IMG/VR virus record: IMGVR_UViG_3300034190_000194
Location: 1 to 23,150 of that record
Length of the DNA stretch: 23,150 bases
From: a virus
Reading direction: 5' to 3' (one strand)
Under the pieces are notes generated by a model that did not search any database, was not told the origin of the DNA, and worked only from the letters and a program-made list of their open reading frames with translations. Within the stretch, counting starts at the first letter, position 1. Each line of letters starts with the position of its first letter. The translations under genes were made by a program, and so were the position numbers. Shown here one piece after another: positions 18,349 through 21,636 of this stretch.

Positions 18349-18754
18349 CATCATCCTTATCATCGTCGTCCACGACCTCATACGTCGTCGTCTTCGGACC
18401 CGTCACGTTGATGCCAATCATGCTGGGGCGGCGCTCATCGCTGTTCGGCTCAAGCAAGCCACGATGTTTCGCCAATAAGCGAAGCGCGGACAGCTTGTCG
18501 TGCATCTCAACCTCAATCGTGTTGCCATGCTGGTTCGGCGTGATCTTCACTTTCTTGATCGACCGACGCGCCCTCTCCGACAGCTTGTCAGATGGACGCA
18601 CCTGTACGCGGCCAAGTTCATCCCACGACAGCACGTCGGTGATCTCGCCGGAGCCAATCGCTTCCAGTTCTTCAACGACAGCGCGTTTCCGGTCCTCGTC
18701 GTCAGCCGCTAGAGCCGCTCGCGCCTCGCGGACGGTTAGCTTCTTATCCGTCAT
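18335..18754 (-). CDS. Terminase small subunit (putative)
   Basis: The ATG at 18754 overlaps the upstream gene by 11 bases; the product is 139 aa. The recognisable part is residues 57-101: LSERARRSIKKVKITPNQ followed by TIEVEMHDKLSALRLLAKHRGLL. This is the C-terminal oligomerisation pattern of Terminase_2-type small subunits (KVK...G...VEM.DK..AL..L.KH.GL). The N-terminus, however, is an acidic helical segment (ARAALAADDEDRKRAVVEEL) and lacks the usual helix-turn-helix that binds the packaging site. DNA recognition may therefore work differently or use a partner, for example the neighbouring zinc-ribbon protein. The C-terminus is very acidic (VVDDDDKDDDERE). Its position before the large subunit supports the call. 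Confidence 0.78.
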   Translation of the reverse strand: MTDKKLTVREARAALAADDEDRKRAVVEELEAIGSGEITDVLSWDELGRVQVRPSDKLSERARRSIKKVKITPNQHGNTIEVEMHDKLSALRLLAKHRGLLEPNSDERRPSMIGINVTGPKTTTYEVVDDDDKDDDERE

Positions 18755-19004
18755 TGACCTCAACCCCCAACGCCGCATAGCCAGCCAGATCGATCCAGCT
18801 ATCTTCATGGTCCGGTGTCTCGATCAATCTTGCCATCTTTACCGCCGCCATGCAAAGCGCGACCTCTTTCACCGTTACGCGGCGGCTCAGTATAACCGAC
18901 CACATATCTGCGATCCGCTGGAAGTTCTCCGACGCATCGCCATACGCGCTGCCGCGATCCGACAGCGCGACGGTGACGTTCTCTAGCAGTTCGGTTCTAT
19001 TCAT
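18744..19004 (-). CDS. DUF6378-like protein
   Basis: This 86-aa protein has the opening ELLENVTVALSDRGSAYGDASENFQRIADMWSVIL, then VTVKEVALCMAAVKMARLIETPDHEDSWIDLAGYAALGVEV. The pattern RG..YGD..ENF..IA.lW...l......DV.lcM...K.aRl......DSWiDiaGYaal matches the widespread phage family DUF6378. The conserved YGD..ENF, K-x-x-R and D-x-W-x-D-x-x-G-Y residues resemble all-alpha nucleotide pyrophosphohydrolase-like (MazG-like) helices, so a nucleotide-related role has some logic but is unproven. GGAGAGG lies ahead of the ATG. It overlaps both neighbours slightly. Confidence 0.8.
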   Translation of the reverse strand: MNRTELLENVTVALSDRGSAYGDASENFQRIADMWSVILSRRVTVKEVALCMAAVKMARLIETPDHEDSWIDLAGYAALGVEVNDG

Positions 19005-19143
19005 CTTCTACCTCTCCCCATCCGCTGCACGTTTCACACTCGACCCATCTCACGCGATACTCCATCCACGGACCATTGTGATAGCCGCCGACCGTGTATT
19101 CGCGCTCGACTTGGCCGTCGCCGCCGCATTCTTTACATCTCAT
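18997..19143 (-). CDS. DnaJ-type zinc-finger small protein (48 aa)
   Basis: The ATG at 19143 starts 11 bases inside the end of the beta-helix gene and gives MRCKECGGDG... ending in GWGEVEDE. Two CxxCxGxG-type motifs, CKECGGDG (3-10) and CETCSGWG (36-43), are the signature of the zinc-binding central domain of DnaJ. Here they stand alone, without a J-domain. The intervening segment (YTVGGYHNGPWMEYRVRWVE) looks like the beta-hairpin of that fold. Such mini-zinc proteins are common in phage early regions. It might be a chaperone-like or regulatory adaptor, but no activity can be inferred. It overlaps the DUF6378 start by 8 bases. Confidence 0.68.
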   Translation of the reverse strand: MRCKECGGDGQVEREYTVGGYHNGPWMEYRVRWVECETCSGWGEVEDE

Positions 19144-19726
19144 CCGTTTCTCCTGCGAGGATTGCTTTTCCGATTTGCTCGACGACCACAGCATTTTTAT
19201 AAACCCAAGATTTACCAAAGACCTTAGCATCGCCATAGACTAAAGCACTGCCAAAGACCACAGCATTGTCAGAGACCCAAGAATTACCAAAGACACAAGA
19301 CTTACCAAAGACCTTAGCATCGCCATAGACTAAAGCACTGCCAAAGACCACAGCTTTGTCAGAGACCTGAGCATTGTTATAGACCCAAGCCTTGTCAGAG
19401 ACCTGAGCATTGTTATAGACCCAAGCCTTGTCAAAGACCCTAGCATCGCCATAGACCCAAGAATTACCAAAGACCCAAGACTTACCAAAGACCTTAGCAT
19501 CGCCATAGACCTTAGCATCGCCAAAGACCCTAGCATTGCCAAAGACCCTAGCATCGCCATAGACCCTAGCATTGTCAGAGACCCTAGCATTGCCATAGAC
19601 CCTAGCATCTCGCCCTACGTGTGCGGTATCAGCAACCTTAGCGGTATCAGCAACCCAGCCACCACCATTGTAATGCTTGTGAGCCGGAACCGGACCTTTA
19701 CCGTCATCAAAATCAAAAGTAGTCAT
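19133..19726 (-). CDS. Left-handed beta-helix hexapeptide-repeat protein
   Basis: The preferred start is ATG 19726, preceded by GGAGGAG, giving 197 aa. After a short head (MTTFDFDDGKGPVPAHKHYN), residues 25-180 consist of 26 unbroken hexapeptides of the form V-[YFS]-[GD]-[DNK]-[AS]-x, for example VYGDAR, VFGNAR and VFGKSW. This fits the [LIV]-x-x-x-[STA]-x rule of left-handed parallel beta-helices, predicting between eight and nine coils of three hexads. No acyltransferase residues or loop insertions are visible, so an enzyme is unlikely; a structural or binding rod is more likely. The head KHYNGGGWVADTAKVADTAHV resembles a phage-borne family known to me only as hypothetical. It overlaps the zinc-finger gene and begins one base after the methyltransferase stub ends. 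Confidence 0.82.
   Translation of the reverse strand: MTTFDFDDGKGPVPAHKHYNGGGWVADTAKVADTAHVGRDARVYGNARVSDNARVYGDARVFGNARVFGDAKVYGDAKVFGKSWVFGNSWVYGDARVFDKAWVYNNAQVSDKAWVYNNAQVSDKAVVFGSALVYGDAKVFGKSCVFGNSWVSDNAVVFGSALVYGDAKVFGKSWVYKNAVVVEQIGKAILAGETDEM
19187..19654. repeat. 18-bp tandem coding repeat array (26 hexapeptide units)
   Basis: The coding array has period 18 bp, with higher-order copies. A block with a near-identical sequence starts at about 19221 and again at 19311, exactly 90 bp apart (five hexads). A 36-bp unit (two hexads, VYNNAQVSDKAW) occurs twice at about residues 103-120. These show recent duplication by slippage or unequal exchange. Confidence 0.85.
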
Positions 19727-19727
19727 C

Positions 19728-19787
19728 TCAATCTCCTCCGATGCCGCTGAACAGGTCGAGGACGTTGATGGTTTCTTGCTCATTCAC
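19728..19787 (-). pseudogene. N-terminal stub of a C5-cytosine DNA methyltransferase
   Basis: A GTG at 19787, overlapping the end of the primase gene (GTGAATGA), opens a 19-codon frame VNEQETINVLDLFSGIGGD and then TGA. The string NVLDLFSGIGG is motif I (the S-adenosylmethionine-binding F-x-G-x-G loop) of C5-cytosine methyltransferases. It stands at the place such enzymes begin: a few residues, then the first beta strand and the loop. Everything after motif I is missing; no PC, ENV or target-recognition motif was seen downstream. The stop is one base from the ATG of the beta-helix gene, and the Gly-Gly codons (GGAGGA) now form that gene's Shine-Dalgarno. The stub is best read as a broken gene replaced by the repeat gene. 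Confidence 0.78.
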
Positions 19788-21636
19788 CGCCATCCCCCTT
19801 CAACACGCTGTAGTCCACCCACGCATGTCCCTTGTCGATCACGACGATGCCTTTGTTCTGCAAGGCGTCACGCGCACGATTACGCGCCTGTCGTGTCGCA
19901 GATGGCGTCTTGCCGTTGTGTTCATCATGCCACGCCGCGACAGAAACCTTCGGCCCGTGATCGACCGCCAAGTTCGTCAACGCCTGCAACGCTATCTTCT
20001 GCGGCCCGGTCAGACGTTCGCCACGCTTCTTCGGAACGCCCTGCTTATCCGTCTCATGCAGCACGACAGTCTGATCTCCAATCAGACCGACACTCACCAT
20101 ACGCAAGTTAATATCGTCGGCGGGTTCTGCATCCTTCTGCTTCTCCACATGGATGGTCATCAGGCCGTCGTTTTGCATGGCGCGAAGCGAAGCGTCCACG
20201 CCACCAAGTAGCGACGTGCTGCCACGCATTCCACGCGCCGCATCCTTGCCCGAATGGTGAACAGCCAACACAGCGCAACCAGCATGACGCTTGATCGCGT
20301 CACACGCATCGACAAACATACCCATGTCCGTCGCGCTGTTCTCGTCACCACCCAGAAGGGCACGGGCGACCGTATCAATCACGATAAGAGAGAAACGCTG
20401 TCCAAGCGAATCAATCGTCCGCATCAGTTTCTCAATATCACCTTGCTCACGAAAACGTACCGCCGTAGGCAGAACATAAAACGGACAGTCCGCACCGGGC
20501 AGTTCGTGATGAAACTCCCAGCCCTTGATGCGCTTACCCAATCCGCCGACGCCCTCACCAGCGATATACAATACGCTGCCAGCCGTCACGTTATGACGCC
20601 CCTGCCACGCACGGCCATGCGCGATAGACAGCGCCCAGTCCAACGCGAGAAACGACTTGCCTGCACCCGGCTCACCGTACAGCACACTGAACCCATGCTT
20701 CGTCAGCATCCCGTCAATCAACCACTCGACCGGCGGCATACGACGCAAGTGCTCAAGCGTATATATCTCGAACGTATCCGCCTGCTCGCCTTCCGCCTCG
20801 TCGCCCGATTGCTCAACTTCCGGTAGATCATCCGGCACTTCATACAACGGCGTAGAGCGCATGATGTGCTTCAACCGTTCCGCGTCATTGCCATTCGCGG
20901 CAAGCCAATCCGCGACATCGCCCTTCGGCGCAAGGTTCGGAAGCACGACGCGCTTCATGCGATTGGCGACACCGTTCAGGTTCTCCGCGACCATATCCAT
21001 GTGCGCCTCGCCCGCCTCGTCGTTATCGGCTATCATCACAACGGCGCGACCTTCGAACCAGCGGTTCAAATCCTCGCGCCACTTTCGCGCACCGCCATGA
21101 CTCGTCGTCGCGAGAAAACCTGCCTGCGCCAGCGCATCCGCACACTTCTCACCCTCAACGATCAGGATCGGGCGGTTGGAATGATTGACGATAAGCGGAA
21201 GGTTATACGGCAGTGGCGTCACACCATCCATGTTCCATACCCAACCGCCCTTGTCGTCAGGACGCCGTTGTATAAAACGCTTTGGCTCATAACGCAGCAC
21301 TTGGTACGACAGAACACCATTCTCGTCATAATACTCATAGACCTTCGACAGCCATTCCTTTGGGCGAATACGCTCTTCAACGTCACGCGTTATGCCAAAA
21401 TTCTGTTGAAGGATTTCGTGCATCGGCTTCAACGACGCACCTTCGTGATGGCGCACCATATCTACGACGCCGCCACCCTTGTTTAATTCGTAGTCAAACC
21501 ACACGCCCTTGCGTAGATCGACCTCGCGCCCATTATGCGTACCCCACCGAAGTTTCCGCCCTCGCGGCTTCGGGTTAGGCTCACCCCAATAATGACGCGC
21601 CACCATCTCAATATATGCTGATAAATTTGTGTTCAT
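19780..21636 (-). CDS. Primase-helicase: Toprim plus RepA-like RecA-fold ATPase
   Basis: This 618-aa replication protein has an N-terminal primase-like part (1-110; WGTHNGREVDLRKGVWFDYE, GGGVVDMV). It is similar to the CHC2-type region but contains no cysteine at all, so a zinc ribbon is absent. A Toprim domain follows, with EGEKCADAL (161-169, catalytic Glu), IADNDEAGE (202-210) and KGDVADWL (238-245). After an acidic linker (about 267-290) comes a RepA/AAA_25 RecA-fold ATPase with Walker A GEPGAGKS (321-328), LYIAGEG (356-362), Walker B SLIVID (416-421) and AVHHSGKD (458-465). A winged-helix-like C-terminus (about 540-610) may bind DNA. It most likely primes and unwinds DNA at the phage fork. 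The ATG follows GGAAAGAAG. Confidence 0.9.
   Translation of the reverse strand: MNTNLSAYIEMVARHYWGEPNPKPRGRKLRWGTHNGREVDLRKGVWFDYELNKGGGVVDMVRHHEGASLKPMHEILQQNFGITRDVEERIRPKEWLSKVYEYYDENGVLSYQVLRYEPKRFIQRRPDDKGGWVWNMDGVTPLPYNLPLIVNHSNRPILIVEGEKCADALAQAGFLATTSHGGARKWREDLNRWFEGRAVVMIADNDEAGEAHMDMVAENLNGVANRMKRVVLPNLAPKGDVADWLAANGNDAERLKHIMRSTPLYEVPDDLPEVEQSGDEAEGEQADTFEIYTLEHLRRMPPVEWLIDGMLTKHGFSVLYGEPGAGKSFLALDWALSIAHGRAWQGRHNVTAGSVLYIAGEGVGGLGKRIKGWEFHHELPGADCPFYVLPTAVRFREQGDIEKLMRTIDSLGQRFSLIVIDTVARALLGGDENSATDMGMFVDACDAIKRHAGCAVLAVHHSGKDAARGMRGSTSLLGGVDASLRAMQNDGLMTIHVEKQKDAEPADDINLRMVSVGLIGDQTVVLHETDKQGVPKKRGERLTGPQKIALQALTNLAVDHGPKVSVAAWHDEHNGKTPSATRQARNRARDALQNKGIVVIDKGHAWVDYSVLKGDGGE

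Follow-up and report, generated by a model that had tools for sequence, protein, structure and literature searches.

Gene order and dcm remnants at the locus

The window analysed here is an IMG/VR record in its entirety (23,150 bases), a metagenomic contig representing a linear phage fragment. Its minus strand carries every gene discussed at the slot, in the order primase/helicase, methyltransferase stub, hexapeptide-repeat gene, small CxxC gene, DUF6378 gene and terminase genes. The features are listed below with their support in brackets.

19780–21636, minus strand: primase/helicase, RepA-like AAA_25, 618 aa, flanking the exchanged slot on its upstream side (PF13481, E = 1.3e-45)
19794–19800, minus strand: Shine-Dalgarno-like AAGGGGG within the primase end, 6 bases ahead of the GTG (sequence)
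19728–19787, minus strand: methyltransferase stub, GTG to TGA, VNEQETINVLDLFSGIGGD (translation)
19735–19787, minus strand: dcm-derived 5′ block, dcm codons 1–18, through GGCATCGGAGG (51/53 bases identical to L004, 50/53 to L012)
19727–19737, minus strand: leader AGGAGATTGAG, which probably came with the repeat gene; 5′ joint and Shine-Dalgarno (the identical sequence precedes a related repeat gene in L175)
19133–19726, minus strand: YdcK-like beta-solenoid (hexapeptide-repeat) gene, 197 aa from its ATG (PF18836, E = 1e-25)
19203–19608, minus strand: repeat array, 18-base period, ~22 copies (sequence)
19147–19187, minus strand: dcm-derived 3′ block (GGTCGTCGAG...GGAGAAA) with the motif X tail VVEQIGKAILAGE in frame (41/41 bases identical to L012)
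19000–19143, minus strand: small CxxC zinc-ribbon-like gene, MRCKECGGDG..., the slot's downstream neighbour in all alleles (sequence)
18744–19004, minus strand: DUF6378 gene, conserved downstream neighbour (PF19905, E = 1.3e-28)

Minus-strand positions 19787–19731 translate to VNEQETINVLDLFSGIGGD, with the TGA stop at 19730–19728. As the first-pass annotation had described, the frame opens with a GTG that overlaps the primase end (primase stop 19782–19780) and closes a single G before the repeat-gene ATG at 19726–19724. Its reading of this frame as the motif I N-terminus of a C5-cytosine methyltransferase was borne out by the relatives: DLFSGIGG is present at the N-terminus of the stub, and the 53 bases are 96% and 94% identical to the intact dcm starts of L004 and L012, respectively. 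A degenerate pattern combining the motif with the stop occurred once in the window compared to none expected from shuffles. Judged from the sequence, the resemblance of the stub to a dcm start is not due to chance.

Similarity to dcm at the 5′ joint ran through GGCATCGGAGG and stopped at 19735, where dcm ...GGCATCGGAGG meets AGGAGATTGAG-ATG with a shared AGG (19737–19735). From 19737 onward, AGGAGATTGAGATGACTACTTTTGATTTTG is identical to the beginning of a repeat gene carried by L175, a phage contig that is unrelated in other respects and whose leader AGGAGATTGAGATG is identical too. L175 was the sole match to the leader pattern outside the family among 2.9 million contigs scanned; the ATTGAG spacer occurred in none of the other loci with GGAG equally far from a comparable start, and no match to the window leader stood in front of the further similar repeat genes compared (L097, L104 and L105). 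Because the Shine-Dalgarno core AGGAG and the ATTGAG spacer match the L175 leader, the core probably arrived with the repeat gene. The first-pass proposal that motif I codons had become the ribosome binding site therefore holds in part: GGAGGA does lie at 19739–19734, upstream of the repeat-gene ATG, but the motif I Gly codons probably merged with and extended an incoming core. L175 is only a relative of the repeat-gene parent at this joint (~79% identical over 350 bases, the contig ending within the array); a DNA-pattern search for the true donor found none, L175 alone sharing the leader.

At the other end of the gene, the repeat protein terminates in ...KNAVVVEQIGKAILAGETDEM and the L012 methyltransferase in ...GNAVVPQVVEQIGKAILAGEKA. 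Window positions 19187–19147 are identical to L012 at 41/41 bases, and the tail VVEQIGKAILAGE is the dcm C-terminus (motif X), fused in frame. A search of all viral contigs matched this tail only within this phage group, and other proteins of the repeat family lack it, ending for example in ...FIEMNDKRYKLVEIV. Repeat sequence ...AATGCTGTGGTC meets dcm sequence ...CCGCAGGTCGTCGAG at the 3′ joint with a 4-base overlap, GGTC (19187–19184). Since the leader follows dcm codon 18 and the last codons are in-frame dcm, the repeat gene is enclosed within a dcm gene. On these alignments the locus carries two dcm scars, the 5′ stub and the 3′ block, with the body replaced; the replacement picture drawn earlier had captured the stub and was incomplete, as the dcm C-terminus was also kept, as the tail of the repeat protein.

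What remains of dcm in the window amounts to 18 start codons and about a dozen end codons. Compared with phage C5-cytosine DNA methyltransferases (PF00145, TIGR00675 dcm; PHROG 363), the window retains motif I in the stub and motif X in the repeat-protein tail, whereas all catalytic and target-recognition parts are gone: PF00145 matched nowhere in the contig, and catalytic motif IV PCQ, motif VI ENV, motif VIII and the target recognition region are absent from the window. The dcm parent was identified for both joints (L012, L004), and the junction DNA had no match in phage GenBank. In a mosaic-junction test, similarity was lost abruptly at the joints, with overlaps of only 3 and 4 bases. Overlaps of this length are close to chance and thus do not prove a microhomology mechanism; their shortness would fit illegitimate recombination.

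Alleles in related phages and the history of the exchange

A primase scan of viral contigs gave 12 relatives and genome contigs added L180, a Rhodospirillales MAG contig; allele types, read from the DNA beyond the primase stop, numbered four among the close relatives. Three of these (L004, L005 and L012), with primases 92–93% identical to that of the window, carry at the site a full predicted C5-cytosine methyltransferase (dcm) of ~280 or 245 residues that starts VNEQETINVLDLFSGIGGFSLGLERAGPFRTVAF (PF00145, E = 2e-47 and 4e-46). These genes have the same VNEQETINVLDLFSGIGG behind the same GTG as the window stub and hold motifs I, IV (PCQPWS), VI (ENV), VIII and X, the L012 dcm scoring above the TIGR00675 cut-off. 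Full methyltransferase genes with an identical start after a homologous primase support the earlier proposal of a primase–dcm ancestor whose dcm body was replaced by the beta-helix gene. The stub and the repeat gene are common to the window and three near-identical contigs (L002, L003 and L013), the four copies being 99.3–99.8% identical over the primase and the 19-residue frame being unchanged in all three.

The other two alleles lack dcm. In L006 (joint TGA/TGA), the CxxC gene (GTG AGG TGT AAA) now begins with the GTG used as the dcm start in other alleles, and in L180 CTGAAGGGAG is joined to AAAAAACATGAGATG, most simply read as a deletion between the GGAG in the primase end and the GGAG before the CxxC gene. 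The L006 arrangement (L006:2176–2200) is a start-codon swap, the dcm GTG standing directly before CxxC codon 2 where ATG AGG TGT AAA is usual. L180 also carries, between the CxxC and DUF6378 genes (L180:870–1830), a gene that by eye is PAPS-reductase-type-like; the slot region takes up other genes too.

A tree of the last 880 primase bases joined L012 (dcm) with L180 (none) and L004/L005 (dcm) with L006 (none) at ~85% support, whereas the downstream-flank tree placed L012 with the window group at 100% support; the 3′ block and right flank of the window group were closest to L012 (TerL 99.1%). The two flanks of L012 conflict with strong support (L180/L004 upstream, the window group downstream), and by these trees there is a recombination breakpoint near the dcm slot. 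Because dcm-bearing and dcm-less members interleave in the primase tree and the window group keeps dcm ends, dcm looks ancestral by parsimony, with three independent losses as the simplest history. The disagreement between flank trees and the recombination around the locus weaken this argument, leaving it good but not absolute.

We consider it very probable that the dcm body was replaced by the repeat gene through gene-replacing illegitimate recombination, with both dcm ends kept. Starting from an ancestor with the order primase, dcm, zinc-ribbon gene and DUF6378, recombination would have removed dcm from codon 19 to ~15 codons short of its end, leaving short overlaps at the joints (AGG at the 5′ and GGTC at the 3′ joint). 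The incoming YdcK-like repeat gene would have brought its own Shine-Dalgarno leader and left its own C-terminus behind. The product would be a closed 19-codon dcm stub ending 1 base before the ATG, together with a repeat protein ending in the motif X tail. The lost gene suggests that the phage lost cytosine methylation, probably an anti-restriction trait. A two-step route, insertion followed by deletion, would yield the identical product.

The reverse order of events, in which the repeat gene was original and the relatives acquired dcm in its place, could draw on the outgroup phages L007–L010, whose primases are 56–61% identical and are not followed by dcm, but we regard it as highly improbable. 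The repeat allele holds both dcm ends, including the 41 bases encoding motif X, a tail found in no other repeat protein of the family; each of the three dcm-less alleles has a joint of its own, as independent losses predict; and searches found no basal repeat allele free of dcm ends. An assembly chimera of two phages, a concern with a metagenomic contig, has a probability close to nil here, both joints recurring in three further contigs whose IMG datasets are numbered separately and whose arrays differ in length. Hydrophobic, glycine-rich short frames are generally expected to arise at random, but chance resemblance of the motif I frame is hardly credible and was rejected, being refuted by L004, L005 and L012: the shuffles predicted no such pattern, the 94–96% DNA identity is to intact dcm starts at the same locus in three relatives, and the opposite end of the repeat gene carries a second dcm block.

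Replacement of the dcm body by illegitimate recombination is an event of a kind already known from phage mosaicism, and the window case is unusually legible. Phage mosaic boundary sequences and illegitimate recombination are discussed in PMC3029335. The present junctions resemble those in being abrupt, in having no long shared sequence and in keeping the surrounding gene order; in contrast to them, both joints fall within one gene, both remnants are readable, and intact, replaced and empty alleles can all be compared.

The repeat protein and its translation

The repeat protein scored 87.7 bits against PF18836 (cut-off 30) and 55 bits against the YdcK equivalog NF040481, below its cut-off of 350; by these profiles it is of the YdcK repeat type and not a YdcK orthologue. 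An NCBIfam virulence/avirulence match (61 bits against a cut-off of 625) was driven by the repeats and set aside. The protein shares with phage YdcK-type beta-solenoid proteins (PF18836; PHROG 5070 and 7964) the N-terminus MTTFDF.DG.GPVPAH.H.NGGGWVADTA and the 6-residue repeats, whereas their usual C-terminus (e.g. FIE.NGKRYKLVE) is swapped for the methyltransferase tail in the window. The family start MTTFDF..GPVPAH was found in ~80 loci. With regard to a left-handed beta-helix fold, an AF2 model showed regular short strands every 6 residues with a solenoid core at pLDDT ~90, whereas a PDB fold search with this model gave no hit at E < 0.001. The idea that the motif X tail caps the solenoid as a helix was not supported, the last 15 residues being of low confidence in AF2. 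Literature searches for repeat proteins of this kind in phages gave nothing relevant.

The repeat gene has a G+C content of 0.47 compared to 0.56–0.57 for its neighbours. Its array (19203–19608) differs from those of L002, L003 and L013 by a 36-base indel and several substitutions, whereas the flanks are 98.5–100% identical; on this alignment, such differences between near-identical phages represent fast repeat turnover. Another phage group (L105–L107) has a repeat gene of the same family that directly overlaps a DUF6378 gene (L105:1097–1823), an arrangement echoing the window neighbourhood.

Translation signals at the locus follow in the order purine-rich stretch, GTG frame, AGGAG, stop, G and ATG, and a purine-rich stretch at the AAGGGGG position was also found in L004, L006, L012 and L180. 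The repeat protein would most likely be made from the ATG at 19726 via the AGGAG site, and ribosomes ending at the primase stop or at the stub stop, 1 base upstream, may boost it. A start at ATG 19783, which lies in the +1 frame relative to the former dcm, would give a 216-aa protein with the 19-residue extension MSKKPSTSSTCSAASEEIE; no stop interrupts this frame after the ATGA shared with the primase stop, but the ~80 homologous loci begin at M(TT)FDF or close to it and the strong Shine-Dalgarno precedes ATG 19726, which makes the longer form unlikely. Somewhat less doubtful, though still no better than a tentative idea, is that the stub was kept as a functional leader peptide, translation from the GTG and its termination setting repeat-gene expression. 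The TGA-G-ATG spacing fits termination-reinitiation, a Shine-Dalgarno lies inside the stub and a purine-rich stretch stands 6 bases before the GTG, with no promoter or terminator between the genes on the minus strand. However, the repeat gene has its own Shine-Dalgarno, and the downstream gene in L006 and L180 manages without a leader. The four stub copies, 99.3–99.8% identical over the primase, are almost clonal, so that their identity is uninformative about selection.

A probable +1-frame gene nested in dcm

The +1 frame was open across dcm in L004, L005 and L012. Most of the ~70 dcm loci compared from related phages have a +1 frame whose ATG arises from the Asp-Asp codons GAT-GAC, generally with a purine stretch containing AGG ahead of it, and which extends ~130–290 codons to near the end of dcm (e.g. 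L012:1168–1638, L014:3266–3802 and L016:3275–3850, with many further dcm loci). Its product is conserved at MTxxSG, LTWK, LLFQL.PSMPRTD, WPTPT.RD and LNPxWVEWLMGFPxGWTDL. When 48 clusters at 80% identity were subjected to synonymous shuffling (500 shuffles), the nested frame was open in 31/48 compared to 2.0 expected, and it contained 29 stops compared to 176 expected, the lowest shuffle having 154. Divergence at fourfold sites was mostly 0.15–0.45 for dcm pairs 61–82% identical in protein, compared to 0.54–0.63 for primases of 57–73% identity. Over the target-recognition part, the +1 frame was overall no better conserved than that of dcm (24 pairs compared to 21), a count that does not by itself favour a nested gene.

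In the Paenibacillus phages Lily and Shelly, the submitters had annotated an internal gene of the methyltransferase, and PHROG 1008 and 26627 match the nested frame. The +1 protein had no Pfam or PDB match and its structure model was of low confidence (pLDDT 51); searches of a literature library found no paper on a nested gene in cytosine methyltransferases. The nested frames of L026, L036, L041 and L090 contain tandem WPTPxxxD units over the variable target-recognition part, in copy numbers that vary between phages.

The nested gene is absent from the window, gone with the dcm body. We think it likely that the slot was dual-coding, with a second, +1-frame protein extending over the target-recognition half of dcm from the ATG at GAT-GAC to LNPxWVEWLMGFPxGWTDL. 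The swap would then have cost the phage two proteins in one step, and what was kept of dcm, its start and tail, would lie largely outside the conserved nested core.

Taken together, the locus is an unusually complete record of how a probable anti-restriction gene of a phage was exchanged for a gene unrelated to it, and both joints are readable because the slot occurs intact, replaced and emptied in two different ways. Of the four joints examined, three coincide with translation signals (Shine-Dalgarno sites and start/stop overlaps), and the methyltransferase tail was reused as the C-terminus of the repeat protein. The same locus led to a probable nested gene, mostly missed by general annotation, that is widespread in phage C5-methyltransferase genes.
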